DNA from: Caecibacteroides pullorum
GTDB taxonomy: Bacteria; Bacteroidota; Bacteroidia; Bacteroidales; Bacteroidaceae
Reading direction: 5' to 3'
Assembly (NCBI RefSeq): GCF_019239235.1
Contig: NZ_JAAZTS010000014.1
Coordinates: forward strand, 1-64,000
Length of the DNA: 64,000 bases
Part shown: in pieces, positions 121-18,186 of the stretch
How the letters are laid out: each line of letters starts with the position of its first letter
How positions within the stretch are numbered: the first letter of the stretch is position 1
Notes under the pieces: generated by a model
Databases searched by the model: none
Told to the model about the DNA's origin: nothing
What the model saw: the letters and a program-made list of their open reading frames with translations, nothing else
Position numbers and translations under genes: made by a program

Positions 121-1851
121 TCAGTAGGCGAAACGTATAGTCATATTGGTAAATACTGGTAAACTGAATGGACGAGTTGCTTCTTTGTAAGTAGCACGCG
201 TGGTTGCTTCTGTTGGCATTGGGAGATGGGCCTGGTCGAATGCTACAAATTCTTCATAATTGTATTCCCATTCTTTTCCATATGCTGTGCTCATCACACG
301 CTTGTAGATTGCCTCACGTGAAGGAGCATTGAAGCCATGCATATTGCTTCGCATCATGCTTTCGGTTGTCGGTCGGTAAGCACCGCTCCAGTATGTACAA
401 GCCCCTTCGTAGATACCTAAAGTTTCACCGTAGTTATCCTTTCCTTGGTAACGTGAATCTTTCAGAAATTTACTCCAGAGTACAGCATTTCTATCATTGG
501 TGAAATCTACATTGGCTGCCCATCCCATTTCCTGCATCTTTTGTGTATCTGTTATTTCAGAGGTTGGTATTCTTCCCATTTCTTGATACGAATATTCATC
601 CATCAGTTTGCTGAAACCGTGTCCGATACATTCATGGCAAAGCACTCGGCGGAACATATCATCTTCCATTCCGTAAATCATAGGGCAATAACCAATGGCC
701 AGATTGATGGTTTTTACTCCATCGTTAAAGCCAAAATAGCAAGTTCCGGCATACTCTTCTGTATTTAGGATGACGATACAGGTCGCTTCATTGAACAGTT
801 CGGGATTTTCTTTGAGAGTAGGTACTTCCATGGCATATTCTTGTACTTTGGAATGGTTCCCTTCTATCAGTGTACTTCCGCCCCCTTCCAACCGGCAACT
901 GAACTTTGTATTGAATTGATTTCCAAAAGCATTGTTTAAAGAAACGGCTGTCACCATCCATATATCAAAATAACTGCGAAGAGATTTAATAGGCTCTTCA
1001 GTAAAGAAATTCTCTATACCTTTTTCCATGGCTTGCCGATAGTAACCATTGCTGATATCTGTATCAAGAAAACCATCTCCTAAAAATATGAGAGGAATTC
1101 CGTTTCCTTCGGTATGTTCTTGTATTAAAATTACTTTTTTATCTTGTGTGGTCAAGTCGGATGAAGTACCGACAGGCGCTTCTTTTTGGTTGATATTGAT
1201 GGTGGCTGATTCCATTAATATCTGATTCTCATCGTTTATGTTTACGACCTGTATCTTGAGTTTGGCATTTCTGGCCACACGCCTTTCGTTGGCTTGTATT
1301 TTTAGGGTGATTTCTCCTTCCTGTATTGCGCGGGTCAGGGTGTTTTCTTTGGGAGTAATCCACGAGTAATTGTCTTCAGCCTTTAAAGTGATTTTTCCAT
1401 TCTGTATATTGGTAGCGAATTTTATGCTGATTTCCTGTTCGTCAGCAGAAAGATCATAGACGGTCTGTTCTATATTTAGAACATCCATTGCCGCTTGTGT
1501 AAAAGTAACTTGAGCAGTTGCTTCTCCGCACGATAAAGTCAAAAGTCCTGTGCGTACTTCTCCCGTTCTGTTTTCTTCCTTAGCTAAAATTCCAATACTG
1601 GCTGTACCTGCTTTGCCAGATGTGGGAGTTATTACAGCCCAAGAAGCATCTGTAGACGCTTTCCAATCATGTGTACTGGTAAAGTCAATGGTAATTCTTG
1701 CATTGGTCTTGGAGTCTAATATTAATTGTTCTTCTGTAGTGATTATTTTAATCTCAGATTGTGTAGGATTGTCTTCATCTGAGCATGCCGTCAGGAAAAC
1801 GCTCCCCAATAATAATAGGAAAAATAGTATCTTATTTTTCATGGATTTCAT
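121..1851 (-). CDS. Surface lipoprotein with BACON domains and M64 (IgA-type) metallopeptidase domain
   Basis: Predicted surface-exposed zinc peptidase. The chosen start gives MKSMKNKILFFLLLLG, a signal peptide ending in a lipobox (LTAC); an in-frame start 57 bases upstream would put extra residues before the signal, so I reject it, while the Met at 1842 is also possible. Roughly the first 200 residues hold two BACON-like beta-sandwich modules (with phrases such as DASWAVITPTSG). The C-terminal part carries HECIGHGFSKLMDEY at about residue 406, which fits the extended zinc motif of Bacteroides M64 peptidases. It is the last gene of the left SusC/SusD operon, about 100 bases after the preceding lipoprotein, so it should be silent when that operon is off. 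M64 members include enzymes that cleave IgA or mucin-type glycoproteins; the substrate here is unknown. The first 120 bases of the window, downstream of it, are very AT-rich and hold nothing I recognise. Confidence 0.85.
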   Translation of the reverse strand: MKSMKNKILFFLLLLGSVFLTACSDEDNPTQSEIKIITTEEQLILDSKTNARITIDFTSTHDWKASTDASWAVITPTSGKAGTASIGILAKEENRTGEVRTGLLTLSCGEATAQVTFTQAAMDVLNIEQTVYDLSADEQEISIKFATNIQNGKITLKAEDNYSWITPKENTLTRAIQEGEITLKIQANERRVARNAKLKIQVVNINDENQILMESATININQKEAPVGTSSDLTTQDKKVILIQEHTEGNGIPLIFLGDGFLDTDISNGYYRQAMEKGIENFFTEEPIKSLRSYFDIWMVTAVSLNNAFGNQFNTKFSCRLEGGGSTLIEGNHSKVQEYAMEVPTLKENPELFNEATCIVILNTEEYAGTCYFGFNDGVKTINLAIGYCPMIYGMEDDMFRRVLCHECIGHGFSKLMDEYSYQEMGRIPTSEITDTQKMQEMGWAANVDFTNDRNAVLWSKFLKDSRYQGKDNYGETLGIYEGACTYWSGAYRPTTESMMRSNMHGFNAPSREAIYKRVMSTAYGKEWEYNYEEFVAFDQAHLPMPTEATTRATYKEATRPFSLPVFTNMTIRFAY

Positions 1852-1871
1852 AAGTAATTTAATTAATAAAT

Positions 1872-1929
1872 AAGGCTGCATCATTTGTCTATAAATGTAA
1901 TCTGACATTTACGACAAAGATGCAGCCTT
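1872..1929. terminator. Hairpin between lipoprotein and M64 peptidase genes
   Basis: AAGGCTGCATC at 1872 pairs with GATGCAGCCTT ending near 1929, and the stem continues inward (TTTGTC/GACAAA) with one bulged base. It lies in the 100-base gap between two genes on the minus strand. The T-run on the minus-strand side is weak, so it may be a partial terminator that lowers expression of the last gene, or an RNA-stabilising structure. Confidence 0.5.
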
Positions 1930-1951
1930 TCTTATTTTATAGATGATTTGT

Positions 1952-2842
1952 CTATTTCTTGGTTAATGTAATATTGCCGTAAGCTCCTGCCCAGCCAGCA
2001 TATTGTCCAGTACTACTATACAAACCAATTCCTAAAATGGCATCCTCATCGAATGTTATAGTTGTGTAACCTTCATCCCATGTTGCATCCCATGCTGTCG
2101 TAGGTTCAACATTATCGCCTGCTTCATTAAATTTCATGGGTGTAACACAACAATTTGCAAGGAATCCAAAATTGACATTCTTTGCATAATAGTCCCCTTT
2201 TACAGCAGTAAGTGATTCTGTTTCTGCATTGTATTCCAATGTCCAAAATTCTCTTTCTGTTACGCCAACTCCAAGTAAGTAACCATCAAATCCTTCTACA
2301 GTATAACTTCTTTGCGGTGCTCCTTGAGTTAATTCAACGTTAAATGTTACAGAACTACCGTCTGTCAAGTCAATAGCATTGAATGTATAGTTCCCTAATA
2401 ATTTTTCATATGGATCTATTAATTCTTCAATGTTCACTTTACAGCTAGCCGTCGAAATTGATGCTCCTTCAGCAGAAGTAATTTGTAATGTAAATGAACG
2501 ATCAAAGTCGTCCGTGGTTGTGTTCACTAACGTTCTAACTTCAGCATAAACAGTTTGTACATCGATTGGCATCACAATGTTACTTCCTGTGAGAATAACA
2601 CTTTCGTCTTTAGTTACTGACGTTCCTTTGGCATCAATCAGTTCTACATTTACTTTTATCAGTCCTGTATGTTCTCCCTCAACAACAATAGGAACATTAA
2701 TCATCGAGGTGTTTTCTGCAACAGACATTTCAGGAGATGCAAAGCCTACGGTAGCGTTTCCGCTATTCATTTCCTCATCATCGCTACAAGCGGCAAATGA
2801 TATCGGAAGTAAGCATAAAGCTAATAATTTGAGATATTTCAT
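1952..2842 (-). CDS. SusE/F-position lipoprotein, Calx-beta-like N-terminal domain
   Basis: 296 residues starting MKYLKLLALCLLPISFAAC, a signal peptide with lipobox FAAC followed by an acidic SDDEE stretch, which is typical of Bacteroides lipoproteins exported to the cell surface. Residues of about 30-135 look like a Calx-beta/DUF1735-type beta-sandwich (VGFASPEMSVAENTS at the start). The C-terminal half is a second beta-rich domain that I do not recognise. It sits 31 bases downstream of the SusD gene, in the SusE/SusF position, so a glycan- or ligand-binding accessory role on the outer membrane is the likely inference. No sequence similarity to the equivalent protein of the right-hand operon is obvious, which suggests different ligands. 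Confidence 0.75.
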   Translation of the reverse strand: MKYLKLLALCLLPISFAACSDDEEMNSGNATVGFASPEMSVAENTSMINVPIVVEGEHTGLIKVNVELIDAKGTSVTKDESVILTGSNIVMPIDVQTVYAEVRTLVNTTTDDFDRSFTLQITSAEGASISTASCKVNIEELIDPYEKLLGNYTFNAIDLTDGSSVTFNVELTQGAPQRSYTVEGFDGYLLGVGVTEREFWTLEYNAETESLTAVKGDYYAKNVNFGFLANCCVTPMKFNEAGDNVEPTTAWDATWDEGYTTITFDEDAILGIGLYSSTGQYAGWAGAYGNITLTKK

Positions 2843-2873
2843 ATGTTCTGTTCTTTTTAATTAAGTATATCAA

Positions 2874-4439
2874 TTAATAACCAGGATTCTGTTGGCCTTT
2901 CAGCTGAGGATTTGCATCATACTCTGCTTTGGGGATAGGCCATACGAAACGATTATCACCAGCTTGTTTGGACAATGCAGTGGTGTTCACTCCACCCGGC
3001 TGAAGAACCATGGTTGATTCTTGGTATGCATTAGCACGATCGATGCCAAGATTCCAACGCTTCAGGTCGATTAACTGGAAACCTTCACCCACCAATTCTT
3101 TGTGGCGTTCGTTCTGAATGGCTGTCAATATCGTGGCATTTGTATAGCTCTTGTCAGTATATTCTGCAATACGTGTACGACACAAATCGTTCAAGTATTT
3201 GCTGGCATTCGTTACATCATTCTTTGCGGCGTATGCTTCCGCTGCAATCAGATATTGCTCGGCAATACGGAATGGTTTCGGCTTGTTGATATAGTGATTA
3301 TCCACAATTGTTTGTGAATATATATCGGGGTTGCCGGGGTATTTGTCGAAAACATATACGTCTGCTTCCGAGCCGTTTGACAGAGCTAAATGATAGGGAG
3401 CAAAGAAAGATGTGAAACGAATATCTTTGTCTCCGTCCGTATAGAGGTCAATCAAGCTTTGAGAAGGAATAAAGTCCATTACTTGTGGATCTCCATTTTT
3501 GTATTGTCCCCAGAACATTGTACCGTTTGTAGAGCAGAGTTCATCTGGAGCGGCAGTATATATCTGCCAGATAACTTCTGTACCATAGTCTGTTACCCAC
3601 ATAGCACGGAATGCTTCACCGTCATTGATAAGAGGGTACTTGTTGCTACTTATCAGTCCTGTAGATGCGCTTATTGCTGTATCATAGTCTTTTGTCCATA
3701 ATGCAACGCGTGCGCGCAGAGCTGTTACCAAATCCTGGCTGATGTAGTTGTATTTGGCCTGAGTATCGGAATTAACAGTTTTGTTTTCATTTACCAATCT
3801 TTCAGCCTCTGTCAAATCTTTGTTGATCTGCTCAAATGTAGCTTGCAAAGATGAACGGCCCGGATATTTACTGTTGTCGGTAGCATTGGAAACGTATGTC
3901 AGCTGTAAGGGAAGTCCATAAACCTCAGCGGCAGTGCTGGGATCGTATGCCTCGCAGAAGAACGTTGCCAGATTGTAATAGGCAAATGCACGTGAGAAAT
4001 AAGCTTCTCCTGCCCAACAGTCAATTAAAGCACGGTCTGCTTCACTAATACCGGGTATTTCACCGTTTACCAATTTCTGATAAGAATCAATATAATAATT
4101 GCTACGTGCAATCAAAGTGTAGAAGTTACCCCAAATGGCTTCGATGTTACCATCAGAAGACTGGAAATCCCATCTGTATTGATTTCCATACGTGTTACTG
4201 TAGCTGGCGGTAGCATGAAAGTCTGCGCATTGGAATTCCGGTGTCAGAACGTGTCCACCCGAAGTCAGAGTCCTATATGGAGAATATAAGCCGATACGGG
4301 CACTTTTGAAGTCATTGGTTGTAGTCATGTACTGACTTTCTTCTACAGCATTGTAGGGATATTTCTCCATGTCACAGGAAGTCAATCCTACTGCTGCAAA
4401 CAAGACGGATAAAATAATATTTCTTTTTTTCATTTTCAT
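2874..4439 (-). CDS. SusD/RagB-family substrate-binding outer-membrane lipoprotein (left operon)
   Basis: 521 residues; the signal peptide ends in lipobox LTSC, then DMEKYP. TPR-like alpha-helical N-terminal part with the family's typical phrases (WAGEAYFSRAFAYYNLA around residue 140) and a C-terminal SusD domain (RIAEQYLIAAEAYA, LIDLKRWNLGID, VWPIPKAEYDANP). SusD proteins form a lid on the cognate SusC barrel and capture the substrate at the cell surface. It lies 21 bases after the left SusC gene and should be co-transcribed with it, so its expression depends on the inversion state described for 7239-10720. Start: Met at 4439, or the second Met two codons later. Confidence 0.93.
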   Translation of the reverse strand: MKMKKRNIILSVLFAAVGLTSCDMEKYPYNAVEESQYMTTTNDFKSARIGLYSPYRTLTSGGHVLTPEFQCADFHATASYSNTYGNQYRWDFQSSDGNIEAIWGNFYTLIARSNYYIDSYQKLVNGEIPGISEADRALIDCWAGEAYFSRAFAYYNLATFFCEAYDPSTAAEVYGLPLQLTYVSNATDNSKYPGRSSLQATFEQINKDLTEAERLVNENKTVNSDTQAKYNYISQDLVTALRARVALWTKDYDTAISASTGLISSNKYPLINDGEAFRAMWVTDYGTEVIWQIYTAAPDELCSTNGTMFWGQYKNGDPQVMDFIPSQSLIDLYTDGDKDIRFTSFFAPYHLALSNGSEADVYVFDKYPGNPDIYSQTIVDNHYINKPKPFRIAEQYLIAAEAYAAKNDVTNASKYLNDLCRTRIAEYTDKSYTNATILTAIQNERHKELVGEGFQLIDLKRWNLGIDRANAYQESTMVLQPGGVNTTALSKQAGDNRFVWPIPKAEYDANPQLKGQQNPGY

Positions 4440-4460
4440 AAATTCGTTAGTGGTTCATGT

Positions 4461-7280
4461 TTAGAAAGTGAGTTCAAGTCCAAACGTAAACTGCTTGGTA
4501 TTCGGATAGTTACCCAGCTGCATGTTACTGTCAATTTCCGGGTCATAACCTCTATACTTGGTAACAGTCCACAGATTACGGCCTACGAAGAATACACGAG
4601 CGCTTTCCATGAAACCTGTACGACGCATCCAGTTCTTCGGCAGATCATAGCTGACTGTCAGGTTTTTCAGACGCATGAACGATGCATTTTCCAACAAGTG
4701 GGTGTCAAATTGCATCGGAGAGTCGGGAGTTGAGATGTTGGTAATATCACCCGGTTTCTGCCACATAGTGAACATGTCAGCAGTCTGATTCATAGAGTTG
4801 GCAAATTGAGGATTCTCAGTAAACCAGCGCTCATTGTTCACCATATATTGTCCCAGCATGTATGCAAAATCTGCAGAAACCGTAATTCCCTTCCATTTGA
4901 GGTTTGTTCCGAAACCACCAGACCAAGGAGCATAACGTTGTTTGCCTGTAAATACAGCATCGTCTTCAGAGAAAGTCTTGGTCAAGTTGCCATTCTTGTC
5001 ATACCACATGTTATAACCATCACGAGGATCGACACCTGCCCAACGGTTATAGAAGTATTCACCATAAGGCTTGCCAACCTGAAGTTTCAGACCTGTATTT
5101 GCCAATACATATTCGTCCAGACCATTGAACAGTTTGGTTATTTCATTTTTGTTGTAGTTTACGTTTGCTGAAATACTCCAGTTAACACCTGCTACGTCTT
5201 TAAGAATGTCTACATTTGCTGTAATATCCACACCACGGTTGCGCATGCTGGCTACATTACCCCAACCTGCAGAGAAACCAGTTGTGTAGGAGAAAGGAAT
5301 CTGCATCAACATGTCTTCTGTCAGACGGTTGTAGAATTCTACATCCAAATTAACTCGGTCGAACAAACGGGTATTCAAAGCTACGTTGGCAGTTTTTACA
5401 ACTTCCCATGTCAGGTCTGGATTGGCAGGATTACCAATTGCTGTACCAGTTTCTCCACCGTACATGGAACCGGAGCTGATAAGACCATAAGCCATGTATG
5501 CAGAAAGAGCTGAAGAGTTACCTACTGTACCGTAGCTGGCTTTGAGTTGTAAGTCGTTAATCCATTCTACATCGCTCAGGAAGTTTTCTTTCTTCAAGTC
5601 CCACATAGCGCCTACAGACCAGAAGTTACCCCATTGGTTATTAAGACCGAAGAGTGAAGATCCGTCACGACGATAAGATGCATCGAAGAAGTATTTTTCG
5701 TCGTAATTGTAGCTCAATGTTGCAAAATAGGAGTTGAATACAGTTTCTGATTTGGAGTGTGAGGGCTTTTCTGTAGTAGCACCTGCACTCAGCAACATAA
5801 GACGAGTGTCTGTCAAGCCATTGACTCTAACACCAAATGACTGGTCTTTTGAGATGATGGATTCCTGACCACCCAGTAAGGTTACGTTGTGACTGTCAAT
5901 GTTGAATTTGTACTCAGCAGTATTCGTGTAGGTGAACGAGTAGTAACGTTGGAAACTTTCTGATGCAGTTCCTGCTCCAATGAAAGGTCCTTCCGGATAA
6001 GCGACCTGAGAATTTCGGTAATCAAAAGCTTCCACAGCTTGGGCTGCACGGATATTCAAACCTTTAATTGGGTTGATGTTAAGGTAAGTATTACCGTTGA
6101 TACGAATCAAATCACGGTTTGAAGGTTGTAATTCAGACAAGTAATAAGGATTGTATACACCGCCTTGTACTCTGTCGAAGAAATCCAGGCGTTCACCGAA
6201 TCCTGTGAAGTTTCCTTCCTCGTCGGTCAGAATCTCATAATAGCTCTGGTCAGGACGATATACACGGGCTGCAAAAGCTTTGTTGTAAAAACTATTGGCA
6301 GTATTTCCAAATGCGGCAGTATTGTATTTCTGGAAAGACAAGTTGAGGTTGACACCTGCTTTCATCCACTTGTTGATGTTAGCTTCGATGTTTGAACGGA
6401 GTGTTTCACGACGCAAGTCTGAATCGTCCATAATACCTTCCATGTCGTAATGTCCGAAAGAGAAGAAGTAGTTAATAGTTTCCGTACCGCCTGTTACACT
6501 CAAGTTGTATTCTTGCATCGGAGCAGTTCCTCCAAAGAATACATCAGACCAGTCGGTAGAAATACCATTATTAATATAGAAGTTCTTTTCTGCCTGGAAC
6601 TGGGCATTGTTTGCCAGTGACGGATCCAGAATTTCCTGGAAATTCAGCCACTGTTCGGCATTCATCATTGTTACGTTATCACCTGTCATTTTGGACAGAC
6701 CGTACTGGGCACTGATATTGATTTTGGCTTTTTCCCCTCTTTTACCTTTCTTGGAGGTCAAGATAACAACACCGTTGGCAGCACGCGAACCATAGATTGC
6801 TGTAGATGAAGCATCTTTCAGTACGGTCATATTCTCGATGTCGTTCGGGTTCAATGAGGTGAATGTACTGGCTGAGATAGGAGAACCGTCCAATATAAAC
6901 AAAGGTGCGGAGCTACCTTCGATGGAGCTGACACCACGCAGACGCATGCTGACGGTTTGGCTGGGCTCACCGGAAGGCGTGAAGACCTGCAAACCTGCTA
7001 CCTGACCTTGAAGAGCATCACCTACGTTGGCTACAGGAGCATTGGCCAGTTTTTCATTTCCTACTGCCGTTACAGAACCAACGACGCTTCCGAGTTTTTT
7101 GCCAGAACCATAACCGGTGATTACAACTTCATCCAAAAGTTCTGTATTCGGCTTCATCATAACCTTCAGATTGGGCCGGATTGTAACTTTTTGTTCTTCC
7201 ATACCAATGTAGGAAATTACCAAAGTCTTCGCGGAACTCCAACTAGCCTCTCCTGACTTCTGAATGTGGTAGCTATGCAC
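4461..7280 (-). CDS. SusC/RagA TonB-dependent transporter lacking its 5' head (phase-off body)
   Basis: Open frame of 939 codons encoding most of a SusC-type TonB-dependent barrel: the plug domain with LDEVVITGYGSGKK and SAPLFILDGSPIS, and a barrel ending in aromatic F (FTFGLELTF). The beginning is abnormal. The first 14 residues (MHSYHIQKSGEASW) match no SusC, and the usual signal peptide and first part of the carboxypeptidase-D-like domain are missing. Homology starts abruptly at SSAKTLVISYIGM, exactly where a 41-bp repeat shared with the right-hand susC begins (7198-7238). I see no TAnnTTTG promoter on the minus strand between 7239 and 7500. In this orientation the protein could not be exported. 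After inversion of 7239-10720 the frame would join to the intact head and give 992 residues. I therefore read it as a silent cassette, not a dead pseudogene; the ATG at 7280 is probably not a real start. Confidence 0.85.
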   Translation of the reverse strand: MHSYHIQKSGEASWSSAKTLVISYIGMEEQKVTIRPNLKVMMKPNTELLDEVVITGYGSGKKLGSVVGSVTAVGNEKLANAPVANVGDALQGQVAGLQVFTPSGEPSQTVSMRLRGVSSIEGSSAPLFILDGSPISASTFTSLNPNDIENMTVLKDASSTAIYGSRAANGVVILTSKKGKRGEKAKINISAQYGLSKMTGDNVTMMNAEQWLNFQEILDPSLANNAQFQAEKNFYINNGISTDWSDVFFGGTAPMQEYNLSVTGGTETINYFFSFGHYDMEGIMDDSDLRRETLRSNIEANINKWMKAGVNLNLSFQKYNTAAFGNTANSFYNKAFAARVYRPDQSYYEILTDEEGNFTGFGERLDFFDRVQGGVYNPYYLSELQPSNRDLIRINGNTYLNINPIKGLNIRAAQAVEAFDYRNSQVAYPEGPFIGAGTASESFQRYYSFTYTNTAEYKFNIDSHNVTLLGGQESIISKDQSFGVRVNGLTDTRLMLLSAGATTEKPSHSKSETVFNSYFATLSYNYDEKYFFDASYRRDGSSLFGLNNQWGNFWSVGAMWDLKKENFLSDVEWINDLQLKASYGTVGNSSALSAYMAYGLISSGSMYGGETGTAIGNPANPDLTWEVVKTANVALNTRLFDRVNLDVEFYNRLTEDMLMQIPFSYTTGFSAGWGNVASMRNRGVDITANVDILKDVAGVNWSISANVNYNKNEITKLFNGLDEYVLANTGLKLQVGKPYGEYFYNRWAGVDPRDGYNMWYDKNGNLTKTFSEDDAVFTGKQRYAPWSGGFGTNLKWKGITVSADFAYMLGQYMVNNERWFTENPQFANSMNQTADMFTMWQKPGDITNISTPDSPMQFDTHLLENASFMRLKNLTVSYDLPKNWMRRTGFMESARVFFVGRNLWTVTKYRGYDPEIDSNMQLGNYPNTKQFTFGLELTF
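7198..7238 (-). repeat. Left 41-bp inverted repeat (IR-L) inside susC
   Basis: Perfect 41/41 match, in opposite orientation, to 10721-10761. It encodes SSAKTLVISYIGM in the same codon frame in both susC genes. Immediately outside, both genes diverge (E-EQKVTIRP here, E-TVKVPVKP in the other). Together with the recombinase gene lying between the copies, this marks it as the likely recombination site of a DNA inversion. Confidence 0.88.
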
Positions 7281-7486
7281 TACTTGGATGGCGTAGCAGA
7301 TGTGTTCCTACTTCAGACGGGTATCTGAAGATGATTAAAGGAAAAATGAGGTACTTGTTTGCTACCGTATTTTATAGTATGGCGGGAGATCTTTAACAGA
7401 TGGAACCTGTTTTTAGGCAGATTTCTTGCTTATAGTGATACAACGTAAACATATTCGTTTTAAATTTGTTACTTGTACAAAACCTG

Positions 7487-8575
7487 ATGACAATGAAAAA
7501 GATTTTTATTACATGCATGGCTGTAGCCATGGTACTACTGACACAGCAAAAGGCCGATGCTTGCACAGGCATCACGCTAACCGCTAAGGACAGTGCGCGC
7601 ATAGTAGCTCGCACCATCGAATGGGGTGGAAGTGAACTGAACAGCCAATATGTGGTGGTTCCGCGGGGATACGTACAACATTCATACGTGCCTGGATACA
7701 CACTGAATGGAATGAAAATGGTGGCCCAATATGGTTATGTAGGCCTTTCCGTAGAGCAAAAAGAATTTGTAGTCGAAGGGCTGAATGAGGTCGGATTGTC
7801 TGCTGGACTCTTCTATTTCCCTGGTTACGGGCAGTATGAAGCTTATAATGAAGAAGTGAAGGAACAGAGTGTTACCGATTTGCAGCTCATCTCGTGGATT
7901 CTGGGTAGTTGTGCTACGATAGAGCAGGTGAAGGAAGCTGTAAGCAAAGTGCATATTATTGCAATAGATCCGCGGGCTTCTACCGTACATTGGAGGTTTG
8001 CTGATAAATCGGGTCAGCAGATTGTGCTGGAAATCGTAGGTGGAAAACCTTGTTTCTACGAGAACCGACTGGGAGTACTGACCAATTCACCCGGCTTTGA
8101 ATGGCAGATGACGAACCTGAACAACTATGTCAACCTTTACGCAGGTACGGCTGAAGCCCGAAAAATGGGTGATGTGCAGATTGCTTCTTTCGGTGCCGGA
8201 AGTGGCTCCTTAGGGATTCCAGGCGATGTCACACCCCCGTCTCGTTTCGTTCGTGCCGCTTTCTATCAGACAACAGCGCCATTGCAGGCCAAAGCGGAAG
8301 ACGCTGTACGTCAGGGGTTCCAGATACTGAATAATTTCGATATCCCCATTGGCGTGGAGTTTGCCGATGGCAAAATACCTGTCGACATTCCCAGTGCCAC
8401 ACAATGGACTACGGTTACAGACATCACAAACCGAGTTATCTATTATCGCACGATGTACAACAGTGCCATTCGTCGGATTGATCTTTCTGAAATTGATTTC
8501 ACACGTGTGAACTATCGGGCTGTTCCACTCGACGACGTGAAACAACAGCCTTTTGTGCCGGTAGTTATCCGATAA
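7487..8575 (+). CDS. Choloylglycine hydrolase / penicillin-V-acylase family protein (Ntn hydrolase)
   Basis: About 362 residues. The start MTMKKIFITCMAVAM gives a secretion signal ending ADA, directly followed by CTGITL, so signal cleavage would expose the catalytic N-terminal Cys of this family. Other family residues are visible: ARTIEWGG (Arg, with Glu where many members have Asp), VVEGLNEVGLSAG (Asn), VLTNSPGFEWQ (Asn) and PPSRFVRA (Arg). Members hydrolyse amide bonds of conjugated bile acids, penicillin V or N-acyl amines; which applies here cannot be told from sequence. It would act in the periplasm or at the envelope. TAAATTTG at 7461-7468 resembles a Bacteroides -7 box but has no good -33 partner. 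It lies wholly inside the predicted invertible segment and ends at a strong terminator, so it is cargo whose orientation flips. A Met two codons downstream (7493) is an equally good start. Confidence 0.88.
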   Translation: MTMKKIFITCMAVAMVLLTQQKADACTGITLTAKDSARIVARTIEWGGSELNSQYVVVPRGYVQHSYVPGYTLNGMKMVAQYGYVGLSVEQKEFVVEGLNEVGLSAGLFYFPGYGQYEAYNEEVKEQSVTDLQLISWILGSCATIEQVKEAVSKVHIIAIDPRASTVHWRFADKSGQQIVLEIVGGKPCFYENRLGVLTNSPGFEWQMTNLNNYVNLYAGTAEARKMGDVQIASFGAGSGSLGIPGDVTPPSRFVRAAFYQTTAPLQAKAEDAVRQGFQILNNFDIPIGVEFADGKIPVDIPSATQWTTVTDITNRVIYYRTMYNSAIRRIDLSEIDFTRVNYRAVPLDDVKQQPFVPVVIR

Positions 8576-8602
8576 AATAGGGTTTATAGAATGTATTTAT
8601 GT

Positions 8603-8657
8603 GAAGTTTCAACGTATCCAATTGTCTATAAGCGGATTACGTTGAAACTTCTTTTTT
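8603..8657 (+). terminator. Strong intrinsic terminator after the hydrolase gene
   Basis: Perfect 14-bp stem (GAAGTTTCAACGTA at 8603-8616 with its complement at 8638-8651), 21-base loop, then six T. It insulates the hydrolase gene from the convergent recombinase gene. Inside the invertible segment it would also limit read-through in either orientation. Confidence 0.9.
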
Positions 8658-8855
8658 AGGTGAAAGATCGTCTTTCTCGTTGATTTCAATCTATACAACT
8701 GAAAATCAATACGTATACGGATGAATGTGAAGGCGTGAAACATTGTTTTCTTAAAAGGAAAACAATGCTTTCTTTGAAGGAAAACATAGCTTTACATTAT
8801 CCGTTTCAAAGCTCTGTTTGGCTATCGTAAACACCGACTTTAGCTTTCTAAACAT
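8658..8855. repeat. Intergenic palindromic short repeats between convergent genes
   Basis: CATTGTTTTC at 8741-8750 pairs with GAAAACAATG at 8758-8767 (10-bp stem, 7-base loop). It is followed by degenerate copies of a roughly 22-base unit (GGAAAACATAGC, TTTCAAAGCTCTG, TAAACACCGACTTTAGC) up to the recombinase stop codon. No open frame of note. It belongs to the same style of intergenic repeat seen near 24276, 36733, 43229 and 59175. A role as the recombinase's transcription terminator is possible. Confidence 0.55.
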
Positions 8856-10067
8856 CTACTTTGGCTCTCTAAAGTGCCTCTTTCGTTTTCCGCTTGCCGA
8901 AACGGGTTGTTCTCGATGTTGTTCTAAATCATGAATGATGGTTTGATCCATGATGCTGGCATAGATTTGCGTTGTTTTTACACTCTTGTGCCCCAGTAGC
9001 TTTTGTACGGTTGTGATGTTGACACCACTATATATTAATAAGGTAGCGTTGGTGTGTCGGGCTGTGTGGAATGAAATATTCTTTGTAAGGCCTGCCTGTC
9101 TGGCTATATTCCTTAGGATCTTGTTGACGTTCGAATTGTCTTTTAGCTGGAAGAAGTTGGCCAAATCATCCTGATGCTCCTTTAGAATGGTCAGTGCCTT
9201 GCCCTCGAACAGCAAATACAGAGGCAAATGCACCTCTACACCCGTTTTCTCGGATTTGTATGCCAACCAGATTTCGTCACGTACACGAACCAAATTGTCG
9301 GGCCTCAGGCGGATGAAGTCGGAATAGCGCAGTCCGGCATAGCAGCAAAACAGAAATGCGTCCAATGTCTTTCGATAGCGTTGCAAGCCTTTCACCTTTC
9401 TTAGTTGTTCCAACCGATCCAGCTCTTCGGGTGTCAGGTGGGTATGTTTATGCTCTACTGTTTTTATCTTGTACTTTCTAAACGCGTAGAGCCGTTCGTC
9501 TATATAATCTTTGTTGATGGCGGTATTGATGTAGCGTTTCAAGTGTTTCATGTGTTTTGCTATCGTGTTGACATGATAACCTTTCTGGCGTAAGAAATGC
9601 TCAAATGAGCATAAGAATTCAAAGGTCAGTTCCGAGAAGTGGATATCAGGTCTGAAAGCAGCCAACAGTTTTAGTGTTGTAAGATGATTCTTCCTAGAGC
9701 TTTCTTTCAGAGCGGATCTTTGAACCTCGTCCCGATAAAAAGCGATGAATGACTGGAGGTCTTCCTTTTTCCGCAGTACCCCTTTAATTAGTTCCAACGA
9801 AATCTGTCTTCCTTGTTGCCAAAGTTCCAACTCCACCTTTTCGATATGGGCAACACACTCATGCAACCACCAGTTGAGCGCTTCACTGTTAGGATGATTT
9901 TTCACGATCAGTTTTTTATTGTCCCATTGTTCGGGTTTTAAGTAGACTTTGGTAGAGAAATATTTCTTTCTTTTGCCTTGATAAGCCTCTATTTGAACTA
10001 ATGCAGTTCCTTTCTTATTGAGGCTTCCTTTTCTGTTGTAGACTAAGTTGTAAACTATTTTATCCAT
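8856..10067 (-). CDS. Tyrosine site-specific recombinase, candidate invertase of the susC switch
   Basis: 403 residues with the layout of Bacteroidota tyrosine recombinases: N-terminal arm-binding domain (about 1-90), SAM-like core-binding domain (about 105-200), C-terminal catalytic domain. All catalytic positions are visible: Arg in AGLRYSD, Lys in YKSEKTG, His and Arg in HTARHTN, His in LLGHKSVKTT, and the nucleophile Tyr in TQIYASIMD. Full length and undamaged. It lies between the two 41-bp inverted repeats and is divergent from the susC promoter, so it would invert its own gene together with the segment. Family members act as phase-variation invertases of surface-protein genes or as integrases of mobile elements. 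I see no mobile-element genes or att-like direct repeats here, so the invertase role is preferred. Confidence 0.92.
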   Translation of the reverse strand: MDKIVYNLVYNRKGSLNKKGTALVQIEAYQGKRKKYFSTKVYLKPEQWDNKKLIVKNHPNSEALNWWLHECVAHIEKVELELWQQGRQISLELIKGVLRKKEDLQSFIAFYRDEVQRSALKESSRKNHLTTLKLLAAFRPDIHFSELTFEFLCSFEHFLRQKGYHVNTIAKHMKHLKRYINTAINKDYIDERLYAFRKYKIKTVEHKHTHLTPEELDRLEQLRKVKGLQRYRKTLDAFLFCCYAGLRYSDFIRLRPDNLVRVRDEIWLAYKSEKTGVEVHLPLYLLFEGKALTILKEHQDDLANFFQLKDNSNVNKILRNIARQAGLTKNISFHTARHTNATLLIYSGVNITTVQKLLGHKSVKTTQIYASIMDQTIIHDLEQHREQPVSASGKRKRHFREPK

Positions 10068-10519
10068 TTTCTATCTTTTATCAGTTGATTGTCATTGTGG
10101 CCGGTAATAAAGGTAGGAAATAAGTATAATTTGAGCCTGTTTTATTCCTTCAGACAGAAATTAACTTGTCGCCTAACCTGCCATTTTTGCTTTCTATTTA
10201 TAGGAAATATGTTCTTCAATATTGTTTTTTGCAATAAAATCGCCCCTCGTTTTTAACTATTTTACATAAAACAGCGCTGTTTATTTAGATATTTGCTTTT
10301 AAATCGAACTTCATATTGAAAGGAAATCGACTAAAAATAGAACGTCCGATGCCTGAAAATTATGCTACTAAACATATATTCACAGTAATAAATAGCATTT
10401 TGACAGATTTTGAAGCTTTTCTTATTAAAACAGTTGCACATTTCATAATTCTTAATAAATTTGCACTTCGTTAGAGTAAAGAAACAATTAATGTAAAGTT
10501 AAACTTTAAGAGAGAATTT
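10068..10519. promoter_or_regulatory. Divergent regulatory region between recombinase and intact susC
   Basis: A 452-base gene-free stretch. It contains the susC promoter (10434-10463) and a perfect 14-base palindrome AAACAGCGCTGTTT at 10269-10282, a possible operator. On the minus strand the sequence TACCTTTA near 10115 could be the recombinase -7 box, but no clear -33 partner is seen. No small open frame looks convincing. Confidence 0.5.
10434..10463 (+). promoter_or_regulatory. Promoter of the intact susC operon, inside the invertible segment
   Basis: TTG at 10434-10436, a 19-base spacer, and TAAATTTG at 10456-10463 match the Bacteroides -33/-7 pattern. Transcription would start near 10470, leaving a leader of about 50 bases before the ATG at 10520. 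It lies on the head side of the 41-bp repeat and would be relocated to drive the left operon after inversion. Confidence 0.72.
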
Positions 10520-13500
10520 ATGAAAAGAAAATTAATGCTGTTATTGGCCTGCCTTTTTGTGGGGATAGGCTTGGTAACTGCCCAAACTCAGACCGTCACG
10601 GGTGTTGTGATTTCTGAAGAAGACGGGCAGCCAGTTATTGGAGCGTCAGTACGAGTTGAAAATACTCAGCTCGGTGCAATTACTGATGTGGACGGTAAGT
10701 TCCAAATAGCGAACGTACCAAGTTCCGCGAAGACTTTGGTAATTTCCTACATTGGTATGGAGACAGTTAAAGTGCCTGTAAAACCCAGTGTGAAAGTCTT
10801 TTTGAAATCAAATACTGAGCTGTTGGATGAAGTGATGGTCGTGGCTTATGGTACAGCTAAAAAATCTGCTTTTACAGGTTCTGCTACGGTAGTAGGTTCG
10901 GAGGAGATTGGTAAGATTCAAAGCTCTAATGTTGCCAATGCATTGACTGGTAAAGTTGCAGGTGTGCAGCTGAACACATCTTCTGGTCAGCCGGGTACAA
11001 CAAAACCCTCTATCCGCGTACGTGGTATTAGTTCTATTAATGCGGGTAACGAACCGTTGATTATTTTGGATGGTGTGCCCTACGACGGTGATATGAACAA
11101 TATTTCCTCACAGGATATTGAATCAATGACCGTCTTGAAGGACGCTGCTTCCAATGCCTTGTATGGTGCTCGCGGTGCCAACGGTGTGATTATCATCACT
11201 ACGAAGAAGGGTACTTCCGGCCAGGCGCGCGTAACCTTGGATGCTAAATGGGGTAGCAACTCACGCGGTTCGAGAGACTACAATGTAGTGAAGAGCCCTG
11301 CACAGTATTATGAAATGTATTATGGTGCACTGAAGAACTACTTTGTGAATGCTGAAGGATATACTCCTTATCAAGCTCACATCCTCGCCAACCAGAACAT
11401 GGCAGACCCAAACAGTCAGAATGCTTTCTCTTTGGGATATAACGCTTACAATGTTCCTGAAGGCCAAATGCTGATTGGCGCCAACGGCAAGCTGAACCCC
11501 TATGCTACATTGGGTAATGTGGTAACCTATGGAGGTCAAGAATACATGATCCTGCCGGATAACTGGATGGACGAGGTATATAACCATGGTTTGCGCCAAG
11601 AATACAATCTCAATGTCACCGCAGGTACAGACAAGTCGTCATTTTATGCTTCCGTCAGCTACCTGAACAACGAAGGTATCACGGTGAATTCGGACTACGA
11701 GCGTCTGACCGGTCGTCTGAAAGCCGATTATCAGGTGAAAGACTGGTTGAAGGTGGGCGCCAACATGGCTTATACCTATTTCAATGCCAACTCATTGGGC
11801 GAGGACGGTTCTTCCGTTTCTTCCGGTAACGTGTTTGCCATCGCCAGCCAGATTGCCCCCATCTATCCGATGTACATGCGTGACGGTTCGGGCAGTATCA
11901 TGGTGGATCAGAACGGTTATAACAGATATGACTATGGTGACGGTACTAACGCCGGCATGGTACGTCCTTTCTTGCCGGGTTCTAATGCCTACTCCGCCAA
12001 TATGTTGGATGAAAACAATGCGGAAGGCAATGCCATTAATGCTAATGGTTTTGCGGAAATCCGTTTCTTGAAAGATTTCAAGTTTACTTGGACAAGCAGC
12101 GTAAACATGACTGAATCGCGTCAGACTGCATTTACCAATCCCTATTACGGACAATACGCCAGTCAAAACGGTATGCTGTACAAATATCATACCCGCAATT
12201 TGTCGTACAATCACCAGCAATTGCTGAACTGGAAACGCAGTTTCGGTCCGCACAACGTGGATGTGATGTTGGGTCACGAGTCTTATCGCTATAAAGACTA
12301 TTATCTGTATGCCGGCAAGACCAATATGTTCGACCCGGCTAACCACGAACTGGCGGGTGCCATCACGGAGAATGGCAGTGATTCATACACTACGGATTAC
12401 AATACGGAAGGTTACTTCGGTCGTGCACAGTATGACTTTGCGGAGAAATATTTTGTTTCCGGTTCTTACCGTCGTGACGCTTCCAGCCGCTTCCATCCGG
12501 ACAACCGTTGGGGTAACTTCTGGTCGGCAGGTGCCGCTTGGATTATCTCCAAGGAAGATTTCTTCGATGTGGCATGGATTGACCTGTTGAAGTTGAAAGC
12601 TTCTTATGGTTCGCAGGGTAACGACAAGATCGGGAACTACCTGTATGTGAATACATATAATATCATTAATTCTGCCGGACATCCTGCTGCTGTACCTGCT
12701 GCCATGGGTAACAAGGACATTACGTGGGAGACGAACGGTAACTTTAACGCCGGTGTGGAGTTCGAACTTTTTGACGCTCGCTTGAACGGTAGCGTGGAAT
12801 ATTTCTTCCGCAAAACTACGGACATGTTGTTCAGCTTCCCGTTGCCGACTTCTTTCGGTTATACATCTTACTATGACAACATCGGCGACATGCGCAATCA
12901 AGGCGTAGAAGTAGAATTGAACGCTACACCAATCAAAACAAGTGATTTGACTTGGGATATCCGTGTGAACTTGACGCATTACAAGAATAAAATTACGTTC
13001 CTGCCTGAAGAGAATAAGACTTCAGTCTTAGGTGGACACCGCGGTTACAGCAGTGGTGAATACTTTTATGGTGAAGGGTTGCCTCTCTACACATTCCGTA
13101 TGAAACAGTATGCTGGTGTGGCGGAAGACGGTCAACCTATGTACTATCAGGATGTGATGGACAGCGAAGGAAATATAACCGGTCGTGTAGCTACAACGGA
13201 CTATGAGCGCGCCACCTATTATGACTGTGGAACGGCACTGCCTGATGTTTATGGTGGTTTCGGAACCAGCTTGACCTACAAAGGTTTCGACCTGAGTGTA
13301 GACTTTAACTATCAGATTGGCGGTCAGGTATATGATAGCGACTATGCAACTCTGATGAGCGCACCTACCGGAACAGGGACAGGTACAGGTTTCCACGCGG
13401 ATTTGCTGAATGCATGGACTCCTAATAATACGAATACCAACATTCCGCGCTTGCAGTTTGACGACCAATACACGGCAAGTACTTCTGACCGTTTCTTGAC

Positions 13501-13732
13501 TAGTGCCTCTTACTTGAGCTTGCAGAACGTGAATTTTGGTTACACGCTTCCCGCCAGTTTGTCGCGTAAGGCAGGTATAGAGAAAATCCGTCTGTATTTC
13601 AGCGGAGAGAACCTCTTTGTATGGTCCAAACGCCAAGGATTGGATCCCCGTCAAAGTATTACCGGTAGCGTAACTTCTTCTTACTATGCACCGATGCGTA
13701 CACTTTCAGGTGGCGTAACTTTGACTTTCTAA
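10520..13732 (+). CDS. SusC/RagA TonB-dependent outer-membrane transporter (right operon, intact)
   Basis: 1070 residues and complete. MKRKLMLLLACLFVG begins a signal peptide ending at about residue 21 (VTAQ). A carboxypeptidase-D-regulatory-like domain follows (VTGVVISEEDGQPVIGASV, about 25-95), then the plug (LDEVMVVAYGTAKKSA; EPLIILDGVPYDG; NALYGARGANGVIIITTKKG) and a 22-strand-type barrel ending GVTLTF. There is no STN domain, so direct anti-sigma signalling is not indicated. It imports a ligand across the outer membrane with TonB energy and its SusD partner, 39 bases downstream. Codons 68-81 are the 41-bp repeat shared with the headless left susC. This gene holds the only head at the locus and is the 'on' copy here. 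The head (codons 1-67) and body (from codon 68) are thus separable modules. Confidence 0.95.
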   Translation: MKRKLMLLLACLFVGIGLVTAQTQTVTGVVISEEDGQPVIGASVRVENTQLGAITDVDGKFQIANVPSSAKTLVISYIGMETVKVPVKPSVKVFLKSNTELLDEVMVVAYGTAKKSAFTGSATVVGSEEIGKIQSSNVANALTGKVAGVQLNTSSGQPGTTKPSIRVRGISSINAGNEPLIILDGVPYDGDMNNISSQDIESMTVLKDAASNALYGARGANGVIIITTKKGTSGQARVTLDAKWGSNSRGSRDYNVVKSPAQYYEMYYGALKNYFVNAEGYTPYQAHILANQNMADPNSQNAFSLGYNAYNVPEGQMLIGANGKLNPYATLGNVVTYGGQEYMILPDNWMDEVYNHGLRQEYNLNVTAGTDKSSFYASVSYLNNEGITVNSDYERLTGRLKADYQVKDWLKVGANMAYTYFNANSLGEDGSSVSSGNVFAIASQIAPIYPMYMRDGSGSIMVDQNGYNRYDYGDGTNAGMVRPFLPGSNAYSANMLDENNAEGNAINANGFAEIRFLKDFKFTWTSSVNMTESRQTAFTNPYYGQYASQNGMLYKYHTRNLSYNHQQLLNWKRSFGPHNVDVMLGHESYRYKDYYLYAGKTNMFDPANHELAGAITENGSDSYTTDYNTEGYFGRAQYDFAEKYFVSGSYRRDASSRFHPDNRWGNFWSAGAAWIISKEDFFDVAWIDLLKLKASYGSQGNDKIGNYLYVNTYNIINSAGHPAAVPAAMGNKDITWETNGNFNAGVEFELFDARLNGSVEYFFRKTTDMLFSFPLPTSFGYTSYYDNIGDMRNQGVEVELNATPIKTSDLTWDIRVNLTHYKNKITFLPEENKTSVLGGHRGYSSGEYFYGEGLPLYTFRMKQYAGVAEDGQPMYYQDVMDSEGNITGRVATTDYERATYYDCGTALPDVYGGFGTSLTYKGFDLSVDFNYQIGGQVYDSDYATLMSAPTGTGTGTGFHADLLNAWTPNNTNTNIPRLQFDDQYTASTSDRFLTSASYLSLQNVNFGYTLPASLSRKAGIEKIRLYFSGENLFVWSKRQGLDPRQSITGSVTSSYYAPMRTLSGGVTLTF
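10721..10761 (+). repeat. Right 41-bp inverted repeat (IR-R) inside susC
   Basis: Identical over 41 bases to the reverse complement of 7198-7238, in the same codon frame. The flanking bases differ on both sides. Predicted crossover site for inversion of 7239-10720. Confidence 0.88.
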
Positions 13733-13771: not shown

Positions 13772-15427
13772 ATGAAAATAACAATATCAAAATTATTTGC
13801 AGGAATCTGTCTTGCGTCATCCATGGTTTTCGCCACTGGATGTATTGAAGAAACATTTCCTACTAACGGTGCCACCGAAGAGCAGGTGACTTCGTCTGAG
13901 GAAGCAGCTACCGCCATGCTTTGGTCTATGCACAGTATTCTGAACGAGCAGGTCGTTGGCGCAAGAGCTCACTATGACTGGGGTTATGGCTCCGTAATGC
14001 ATGTCCGTGACGTGATGACAGGCGATATGCCTATCGTAAGTTCGGGTTACGACCACTATTCCGCATGGGAGCAGAACGTGGCTATCGGCGAAGGCTACTT
14101 GAGTACGCAATTCCTTTGGTACGTACATTGGAAAGCCATCCTTTCTGCCAACAAGCTGCTGGCTGCCTATCCGGAAGAAACTGCCAGCGATGTAGTGAAA
14201 GGCTATATTGGCGCAGCGCACGCCTATCGTGCCTTGATTTATTTGGACATGGCACGTATGTTCGAGTATCTGCCTACGGATGTTACTGACCCTGTTACCA
14301 GAGAAGGTAATGACGTGACCAATTATACGGTGCCTATTGTCACCGAGGAAACTACGCAGGAACAGTCTTATAACAATCCACGCGTAACTCGTGACGAAAT
14401 GGCCGCATTCATTCTTTCCGACCTTGACAAAGCGGAAGAGCTGATTTCTTATCTTACTATCAGTGACCGTACTATGCCTCACATTGATGCCGTCTATGGT
14501 TTGAAAGCCCGCCTCTACATGTGGATGGCGGAAGATGGCAAGACCACCGATGTCGAAGCTTACCGTAATGCACAGAGATATGCGCGTATGGCTATCGATG
14601 CTTCCAGACTGGCTCCCATGACCGAAGAAGAGTGCCTCAGCACCACCAAGGGTTTCAACGACATCAACTGCTGGATGTGGGGCTCGGAACTGGTGAAAGA
14701 AAATGAAGCAGTGCAGACTGGTATTGTCAATTGGGTATCTTGGATGTGTAATGAAAACACTTTTGGTTATACAGCACAAAACGGTGGCCCGACGTTAATG
14801 ATTGACGCCCGCATGTATGGCCAAATTAATGACAATGATTTCCGTAAACGTATGTGGGTACCCGCTTCGGCAAGTAGCCCGCTGTGGGATAAGATTGATT
14901 TTACCACTTCCGCTTATGTTGATATGAGGGCAAAATTCGCTTCGCTGCCTTTGGCGTCTTTGAAATTCCGTCCAGGTGAAGGCAATCCTGACGATGTGAA
15001 TCTGGCTGCTGCCATCGCTTACCCCATCATGCGTGTAGAAGAAATGTACTTCATTGAGGCTGAAGCCGCCGAGCATGTTACACCGGGTGAGGGCAAGAGA
15101 CTGCTGGAGGACTTTATGAACAACTACCGCATCGCTTCCGACGCTCCCGATGGCTACCGATATACCTGCACGGCTACGGATGTCATTCAGGAAATCGTGT
15201 TCCAAAAGCGTGTAGAGCTGTGGGGCGAAGGACAAAGCTTCTTTGACTACAAGCGTCTGAACATGTCTGTTGACCGTACTTACCAAGGCAGCAATTTCTA
15301 TTCGCAGGCACAATTCAGAACCACCGGACGTCCGGCATGGATGAACATCTGTATTGTACAGTTGGAAAAGGAAAGTAACCGAGCTTTGCTTGGTTGGGAA
15401 AATCCCGATCCGAGCGGCTTGTATTAA
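13772..15427 (+). CDS. SusD/RagB-family lipoprotein (right operon)
   Basis: 551 residues with a lipoprotein signal (KLFAGICLASSMVFATGC, then IEETFP). SusD-type features include AHAYRALIYLDMARMFEYL around residue 155, VYGLKARLYMWMA, and a C-terminal IMRVEEMYFIEAEAAEH, followed by KRVELWGEGQSFFDYKRLN. Pairs with the SusC immediately upstream to capture the substrate at the surface. It belongs to a different subfamily from the left SusD, with little visible identity outside the conserved motifs, so the two phase states probably favour different nutrients. Confidence 0.93.
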   Translation: MKITISKLFAGICLASSMVFATGCIEETFPTNGATEEQVTSSEEAATAMLWSMHSILNEQVVGARAHYDWGYGSVMHVRDVMTGDMPIVSSGYDHYSAWEQNVAIGEGYLSTQFLWYVHWKAILSANKLLAAYPEETASDVVKGYIGAAHAYRALIYLDMARMFEYLPTDVTDPVTREGNDVTNYTVPIVTEETTQEQSYNNPRVTRDEMAAFILSDLDKAEELISYLTISDRTMPHIDAVYGLKARLYMWMAEDGKTTDVEAYRNAQRYARMAIDASRLAPMTEEECLSTTKGFNDINCWMWGSELVKENEAVQTGIVNWVSWMCNENTFGYTAQNGGPTLMIDARMYGQINDNDFRKRMWVPASASSPLWDKIDFTTSAYVDMRAKFASLPLASLKFRPGEGNPDDVNLAAAIAYPIMRVEEMYFIEAEAAEHVTPGEGKRLLEDFMNNYRIASDAPDGYRYTCTATDVIQEIVFQKRVELWGEGQSFFDYKRLNMSVDRTYQGSNFYSQAQFRTTGRPAWMNICIVQLEKESNRALLGWENPDPSGLY

Positions 15428-15466
15428 TCAGTGTTCAGGTTTAACAAATTAACACAGAAAAGATTT

Positions 15467-16354
15467 ATGAAAAGAATAATGAAAAACAGCTTTATAGCTT
15501 TATCAACAGTACTTGCGGTGGGACTCACCGCTTGTACTGAGGAGGCTGATTATATGCCCGCTGATTTGGTAGCCTCCGACTGCATCAAGGCATCTTTTGG
15601 AACAGATGGCAATGCCTTGATTTTTGCTTCAACGGATGAGAATAAATTCAGCATACCACTGACCCGTGAGGTAACGAATGGTGAGAGTGTAGTATTGCTT
15701 AATCCGACTCACTTGAACAGCAGTATCTTCCAAATACCTGAAAGTGTGACTTTCGCCGCCGGTGCAAATGAAACTTTGGTTGATGTTACTTTTACTACAG
15801 AAGGTATGGAACTGGAAGAGGAATACACGTACAGCATCGAATTGGAAGAAGCTGCTTATGACCCTTATTCAGAGAACACGGTTTCTACGACTACGGGTAC
15901 TGTATTGAAGCAGGCTAATTGGGATAAAACATTAGGAATAGCCCAACCTAATTTTATGTATTTTGGAACCCAAAGCGACCTTTGGGGGCGCAATGTTAGA
16001 ACAGAGTGTGAAGTCTTGGGAACGAGTAGTGCCACCACATGGTATAAATTGGCAAGTCCGATAGAAGAGGGTTGTGACATCGTACTGAAAGTGAATGAAG
16101 ATGGCACCGTACGTGTACGTCAGCAACTGATTTACATGGCGGACATTAGCAATTTATTGGGATATAGTTATCCGCCGACACCGTGCTATGTTAGCTTGAA
16201 TGCAAGCTATACTGGAGCAAACTTGGGTAATGGTATATATGGAAATACATATAATCCGGAAAATGGTTTGATAGCTGTAGTTTTAGATTACACTTGCGCT
16301 GCCGGTACCATTACGACTGCCCTAACAAGTTTTTCTGTTCCCGCAGCCCAATAA
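15467..16354 (+). CDS. SusE/F-position surface lipoprotein (right operon)
   Basis: About 295 residues from MKRIMKNSF; a signal peptide with lipobox LTAC, then TEEADY. The N-terminal part (about 30-130) resembles Calx-beta/DUF1735-type beta-sandwich modules (FSIPLTREVTNGESV; FAAGANETLVDVTF). The C-terminal part is an unrecognised beta-rich domain. It follows the SusD gene by about 40 bases and precedes a terminator, so the right operon is a three-gene unit. It lacks the fourth gene (M64 peptidase) of the left operon. Likely a ligand-binding accessory of the transporter. The in-frame start at 15431 would add residues before the signal and is not favoured. Confidence 0.75.
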   Translation: MKRIMKNSFIALSTVLAVGLTACTEEADYMPADLVASDCIKASFGTDGNALIFASTDENKFSIPLTREVTNGESVVLLNPTHLNSSIFQIPESVTFAAGANETLVDVTFTTEGMELEEEYTYSIELEEAAYDPYSENTVSTTTGTVLKQANWDKTLGIAQPNFMYFGTQSDLWGRNVRTECEVLGTSSATTWYKLASPIEEGCDIVLKVNEDGTVRVRQQLIYMADISNLLGYSYPPTPCYVSLNASYTGANLGNGIYGNTYNPENGLIAVVLDYTCAAGTITTALTSFSVPAAQ

Positions 16355-18127: not shown

Positions 18128-18157
18128 AAGAAAAAACGCTATTTTTGTCTTTCCAAG
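18117..18157 (+). repeat. Second copy of the ATPase promoter repeat
   Basis: Matches 16741-16782 with a G insertion and two fewer A. It keeps TTTG (18118-18121) and TATTTTTG (18140-18147) at an 18-base spacing. It overlaps the last four codons of the intact ATPase and precedes the broken ATPase gene, so each plus-strand member of the cluster has its own copy of the same promoter. Confidence 0.75.
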
Positions 18158-18186
18158 GGAAGAGACAAAAGTAAAACCTGTTAGTT

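Follow-up and report, generated by a model that had tools for sequence, protein, structure and literature searches.

The first 64 kb of contig C5 from the 3.61-Mb genome of Caecibacteroides pullorum (hereafter the window) carry two divergently oriented susC genes. The locus formed by these genes is very probably an inversion switch with two states, acting on transporters of nutrients at the cell surface. The DNA segment at 7239-10720 would supply both the sole SusC head and the promoter-like sequence before it. A recombinase encoded in the segment would cut at 41-bp sites placed in frame in both susC genes and would thereby invert the segment. In the sequenced state, the head would drive the right SusC, SusD and lipoprotein, with the left operon having neither a head nor a recognisable promoter. 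After inversion, the head would read through the site in frame into the left body, and the left SusC, SusD, lipoprotein and M64 peptidase would be produced instead. We infer four things: the recombinase acts at this locus, the promoter lies where it is marked, nothing is expressed from the headless operon, and cells alternate. The displayed SusC/SusD pair affects uptake and may affect which phages and antibodies see the cell.

The left susC open reading frame (4461-7280, minus strand) has no start with a signal peptide and no CarboxypepD_reg match. The right gene (10520-13732, plus strand) is complete, with a signal peptide, a CarboxypepD_reg-like domain, a plug and a barrel. Both genes contain, in the identical codon frame (SSAKTLVISYIGM), one arm of a perfect 41-bp inverted repeat, AGTTCCGCGAAGACTTTGGTAATTTCCTACATTGGTATGGA, located at 7198-7238 (minus) and 10721-10761 (plus). 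Identity drops to 73% across wider arms of 144 nt, and the sequence upstream of the site differs between the two sides. The segment between the repeats holds the only SusC head, the promoter-like sequence, the recombinase gene and a hydrolase gene. The recombinase shows Arm, SAM-like and catalytic domains, and the residues R247, H334-x-x-R337, H360 and Y369 are readable in it. Inversion of the segment in silico creates a left open frame of 1007 codons, or 992 counted from the ATG of the head, and the left body contributes 925 intact codons from the site onward. The right body then loses its head and is preceded by the same open stretch of 23 residues that now stands before the left body. An earlier note on this DNA had claimed the headless and the intact susC, the perfect in-frame repeat with different flanks, the complete tyrosine recombinase between the arms, and a 992-residue left SusC with a headless right one after inversion; all of this was borne out by the sequence, the domain checks and the inversion in silico. 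The features are as follows.

7239-10720, no strand: predicted invertible segment, bounded by the 41-bp repeats without including them; the inverted junction is present in Mediterranea massiliensis
7198-7238, minus: left inverted repeat and putative recombination site, inside the headless left susC
10721-10761, plus: right inverted repeat and putative recombination site, beginning at codon 68 of the intact susC
10456-10463, plus: Bacteroides-type -7 element TAAATTTG with TTG about 22 nt upstream (consensus match only)
10520-10720, plus: putative mobile head of 67 codons, running from the start codon through the signal peptide into the N-terminal extension; a 67-codon head is also found in M. 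massiliensis
8856-10067, minus: tyrosine recombinase of 403 amino acids, a predicted invertase
7493-8575, plus: choloylglycine-hydrolase-family gene (CBAH) carried in the segment, by Pfam CBAH match
4461-7238, minus: left SusC body, headless here (the listed reading frame extends to 7280)
2874-4439, minus: left SusD, 21-nt gap to susC
1952-2842, minus: left putative lipoprotein, no Pfam family, 31-nt gap
121-1908, minus: protein with BACON and Peptidase M64 domains, final gene of the left operon, 43-nt gap
10520-13732, plus: right SusC, intact (head and body) in the sequenced state, by domains and signal peptide
13772-15427, plus: right SusD, 39-nt gap
15431-16354, plus: right putative lipoprotein, start codon uncertain, no Pfam family, 3-nt gap
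19005-20273, plus: HflX, flanking chromosomal marker, by flanking-gene match

The promoter at 10456 is a match to the consensus TAnnTTTG, quoted for the -7 element of Bacteroides-type promoters in PMC6927303, and is not a mapped one. On the plus strand of the segment this consensus is found at 7461 (before the hydrolase gene), 8962 (inside the recombinase gene) and 10456 (before the head). The minus strand of the segment has none, and no such element reads toward the headless left body. The gaps from susC through susD to the lipoprotein gene, and on to the M64 gene on the left, are short; therefore, whole operons should switch.

The opposite state was found in M. massiliensis Marseille-P2645, whose locus (L007) contains the left SusC body of the window at 98.9% and the left SusD at 99.8% amino acid identity, with the SusC headed. 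The inverted window aligns unbroken to L007 over 2376-7758 (5.4 kb) at 94.5%, and the alignment of the uninverted window breaks at 7238, which is the repeat boundary. The predicted flipped junction of 161 nt has five mismatches to the M. massiliensis sequence, all of them on the head side and none in the repeat or the body. The unflipped arms have 47 (left, all on the head side) and 31 (right) mismatches out of 161. A 73-nt version of the junction was detected at no more than three mismatches in one of the 158 genus genomes, that of M. massiliensis (G007). The two loci share the left SusC body, the left SusD, the M64 gene, the recombinase (69% identical) and a CBAH gene between the recombinase and the nearest headless body. 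Unlike the window, L007 has the left body headed and carries on its far side two other headless SusC bodies, which are 36-45% identical to the right SusC of the window.

Related loci were compared as a family of 81, comprising the window and the best 80 of 177 loci of recombinase relatives from the genome collection. Not all of them are independent: L019 and L020 belong to one genome, and L032 and L033 overlap on one contig. Sites were called by a motif scan, with the headed site divergent from the recombinase and the headless site on its far side. A headed site was found in 61 loci, a headless one in 62 and both in 53. The headless sites number 79; 64 of them open frames that end within their own locus, and 61 of these 64 stay open for at least 870 codons (full length), the three short bodies being those of L006, L032 and L033. 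The open frame before the site measures 82 codons in 37 of the 61 headed loci, and 15 of the 61 possess two headless sites. In L038, L041, L045 and L049 the integrase lies between the flanking genes (hflX and MarC/YjjG) and no SusC site was found; these loci are possible remnants of a switch.

Bodies from different genomes were taken as orthologous when they shared 88% identity or more over 1 kb or more; with the L019/L020 and L032/L033 pairs (one record each) set aside, they form nine genome pairs. The head state is opposite in six of the nine: window/L007, L034/L035, L030/L035, L046/L048, L071/L079 and L057/L059. In these six pairs the ratio of nonsynonymous to synonymous substitution rates (dN/dS) is 0.01-0.10, indicating strong purifying selection, and it equals 0.046 for the left body of the window against the headed M. 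massiliensis copy. Such low ratios argue that the headless copies are kept functional.

Records of two further strains contain both states. In the chromosome record of Bacteroides fragilis Q1F2 (NZ_CP018937.1; G113:C1), the first 47.2 kb recur at the end with 99.6-99.7% identity, and within this terminal repeat a 9.16-kb block between two sites is inverted at 99.98%. Most simply, this is a circular overlap that was left untrimmed and assembled in both states; a true duplication with one copy in each state would look alike. Three "plasmid" records of Bacteroides sp. CACC 737 in PLSDB (pCACC737_6, pCACC737_2 and pCACC737_5) share long stretches of 98.9-99.9% identity and display three different headed bodies. 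One body of 1023 codons has the head in pCACC737_6 and lacks it in pCACC737_5, and these two records align in one direction up to the site and in the other beyond it. The same site in pCACC737_2 is headless and is followed by only 123 open codons. One of the CACC 737 records carries pieces of hflX, DUF4954 and fumarase genes, and another has MarC, YjjG and rsmI. Because of these pieces of chromosomal flanking genes, the records, which are also the three best plasmid records for the recombinase among the matches listed, seem to be not plasmids but fragments left by the assembly of a single chromosomal SusC switch, caught in different states. A gene for a DUF4143-annotated ATPase also stands among the SusC bodies of pCACC737_5. 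The switching proposed in the earlier note is thus supported by the headed left body in M. massiliensis, by the six opposite-state pairs and by both states in the Q1F2 and CACC 737 records. The comparison with assemblies of relatives that it had suggested gave the same result: the left susC is not headless in all of them, and in M. massiliensis the head is joined to it at the predicted place.

Several observations weigh against a two-state switch. The flipped junction was not found in the window's own assembly at up to three mismatches, and viral contigs gave zero exact matches to it. Sequence comparison makes it probable that species exchanged the left body found in M. massiliensis, so that it shows the headed form and not a flip within one lineage. 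The head state is alike in three of the nine pairs: L029/L031, both headed (dN/dS 0.04); L040/L044, both headless (0.11); and L017 versus Q1F2 (L019/L020), both headless. Finally, 28 of the 81 loci do not have both kinds of site (eight headed only, nine headless only, eleven neither); the motif scan misses include some contig ends, some repeats outside the motif (e.g., L027) and some loci with no SusC at the integrase. A switch that once worked and is now frozen with the right side on, its recombinase being inactive or no longer expressed, would agree with the absence of a flipped state from the sole assembly and with the four loci that keep an integrase between the flanking genes and show no SusC site. 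This is improbable, given a complete recombinase frame that retains R, HxxR, H and Y, two sites without a mismatch between them and an intact left body.

Alternatively, the repeats could be used by a recombinase encoded elsewhere, the local one being a passenger. Invertases of B. fragilis are reported in PMC4747536 to act on distant regions. For the window this explanation is even less probable: in 29 of the 61 headed loci the site stands 654 or 655 bp from the recombinase start, and repeats that enclose the recombinase are found in one species after another. The recombinase is 66% identical to those at the SusC loci of B. fragilis Q1F2. Its assignment to a phage or a plasmid was rejected; among the matches listed, the closest relative in phage records is 53.5% and the closest in the plasmid collection 69.7% identical.

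The 41-bp site has no further copies in the 3.61-Mb genome at up to three mismatches, and a looser site pattern gives only one forward and one reverse match, so a third or further SusC body in this genome was rejected. A search of 100 genomes for the exact site, with up to three mismatches allowed, gave matches in this genome and in three relatives. Of the 158 genus genomes, 77 match a degenerate site pattern, with zero for the reversed control among the matches listed. In some loci (e.g., L036 and L050) the repeat extends about nine bases further upstream. Across 59 within-locus pairs of head and headless sites, the 13-codon core offers 693 comparisons of codons for the same residue, of which 615 (0.887) are identities; downstream of it, 619 of 1102 are (0.562). 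Between loci, the synonymous identity is 0.527 in the core and 0.421 downstream. Conservation of the SusC protein alone is not enough to explain the repeat, since the within-locus value in the core (0.887) stands against 0.562 downstream and 0.527 between loci; mere protein conservation was therefore rejected. Site codons 1, 2 and 3 are each identical in 59 of 59 within-locus pairs; between loci, codon 1 is constant and codons 2 and 3 are identical in 0.35 and 0.59 of comparisons. The invariance of these codons within loci and the differing upstream sequence suggest that strand exchange probably takes place within AGTTCYGCR, the nine bases with which the site begins, or close by. A decaying left pseudogene truncated at the 5' end, with a repeat that reflects nothing more than conserved SusC coding sequence, would suit the lack of a start with a signal peptide and the conserved SusC motif encoded by both arms, but this reading is almost certainly wrong and was rejected on the dN/dS of 0.046 and the headed M. 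massiliensis copy of the same body, and the 925 intact codons and the within-locus confinement of the peak in synonymous identity also speak against it.

The SusC/SusD inversion mechanism is already known, and the window locus is a two-body member of this group. It has a recombinase gene at the locus and inverted repeats at the 5' part of alternative susC genes. One head and one promoter (the latter by consensus only) are common to alternative SusC/SusD pairs, the others being headless but intact. The alternative orientation occurs in nature, as a junction in a relative and as both states in records of two other strains, though not in this strain. It is not a shufflon in the strict sense of at least three sites, as there are two sites only at up to three mismatches. 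In Mpi-type invertible promoters the repeats flank the promoter only and lie outside coding sequence. The window locus is not of this type: its repeats are inside coding sequence, and the signal peptide moves too.

Tsr0667 of B. fragilis is described as carrying out shufflon-type inversions at three SusC/SusD clusters and nine other regions (PMC4747536; also PMC11852207). That system resembles the window in combining a DNA invertase with SusC/SusD outer-membrane pairs, of which inversion picks the expressed one; it differs in its multiple inversions, whereas the window has two bodies, two sites and a hydrolase gene in the segment. The "region EE" shufflon of B. fragilis covers the start of ragA/susC genes, and its three-pair set has been replaced by a more complex one via chromosomal transfer (PMC5729914). 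Here, too, inverted repeats lie over the start of susC homologues and alternative SusC/SusD pairs stand under one promoter, but there are three pairs in strain 638R and a more complex six-gene set in HMW615, as against two pairs in the window. The B. fragilis precedent for inversion of outer-surface genes, invoked in the earlier note, is thus found in PMC4747536 and PMC5729914. Bacteroides thetaiotaomicron has nutrient-receptor shufflons, one of which shifted under phage; deleting the receptors shifted under phage ARB25 gave no support for them as its receptor (PMC12548429). The likeness to the window, judged by description, is a phase-variable choice among nutrient receptors. Inversions near susC/susD differ in inflammatory bowel disease (PMC10939037), and PMC12632263 also belongs to the prior knowledge on SusC switches; PMC13114119 yielded nothing on the present switch. 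The window extends the B. fragilis and B. thetaiotaomicron mechanism to a relative of M. massiliensis with a clean two-state layout, the exact predicted junction and a natural opposite state. Beyond the known systems, it adds a hydrolase passenger and signs of trade in SusC/SusD bodies between species.

The CBAH gene, of which the earlier note made no mention, lies between the recombinase and the nearest headless body in the window and in seven of the 80 other loci (L004, L006, L007, L008, L012, L014 and L015). In L005 it adjoins hflX instead. Relatives of CBAH (E <= 1e-100) were found in 60 of the 158 genus genomes, this one included, and in some of them far from SusC sites (e.g., G113 and G103). 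The protein passes the Pfam CBAH cut-off (226.5 bits against 20.4) and fails the NCBIfam cut-offs for choloylglycine hydrolase, i.e., bile salt hydrolase (206.7 against 350), and penicillin V amidase (211.7 against 600). Its closest solved relative is penicillin V acylase (2oqc). The CBAH motif RTIEWG has Glu where the aligned acylase has Asp (RTMDF). As the gene has its own upstream region whichever way the segment lies, its expression would not be predicted to change upon inversion. No literature on a hydrolase inside a SusC switch was found among the matches listed.

The chromosomal setting is partly conserved. At least one of hflX, DUF4954, fumarase, MarC, YjjG and rsmI was present in the fetched stretch of 48 of the 80 loci; some of the flanking-gene queries were drawn from record H24 (L105). 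The right side of the window has the order hflX-DUF4954-fumarase, and over 7 kb this flank shares 88% identity with M. massiliensis. On the left, the contig ends after the M64 gene. MarC was expected beside M64, as in M. massiliensis, and this was not so: it lies 41.7 kb from the end of contig C55, where MarC, YjjG and rsmI, the M. massiliensis neighbours, stand among other genes. This argues against a full common gene order here, and the left flank of the locus may be rearranged.

Synonymous divergence (dS) from M. massiliensis is uneven across the locus. It reaches 0.65 in hflX, 0.97 in DUF4954 and 0.21 in fumarase, and is 0.02 in the left susD and 0.11 in the left susC body. The head shows 0.32, the hydrolase 1.65 and the left lipoprotein 1.12; the recombinase is saturated. 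The M64 gene is mixed, being 98-100% identical over 1.4 kb with a divergent N-terminal end. Between 121-7238 of the window and 2314-9347 of L007, the M64 core, susD and the susC body are near-identical, and the neighbouring genes and the recombinase have diverged. The cause of this mosaic is likely a recent exchange of the body cassette. It can be put forward tentatively, at somewhat less than an even chance, that the switch also serves as a port for exchange: species of the Bacteroides group would swap whole SusC/SusD body cassettes with one another at a conserved place in the chromosome, behind a common head and site, so that a new transporter arrives under phase-variable control, and in one group of relatives the segment would also bear a secreted N-acyl-amide or bile-salt hydrolase. 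The family comparison suggests that bodies can cross from species to species and leave the switching machinery in place.

Between the right operon and hflX, at 16802-18942, lie a DUF4143/AAA_14 ATPase gene and a PD-(D/E)XK open reading frame. At the opposite end, the contig begins in very A+T-rich sequence (positions 1-120) adjoining the M64 gene.

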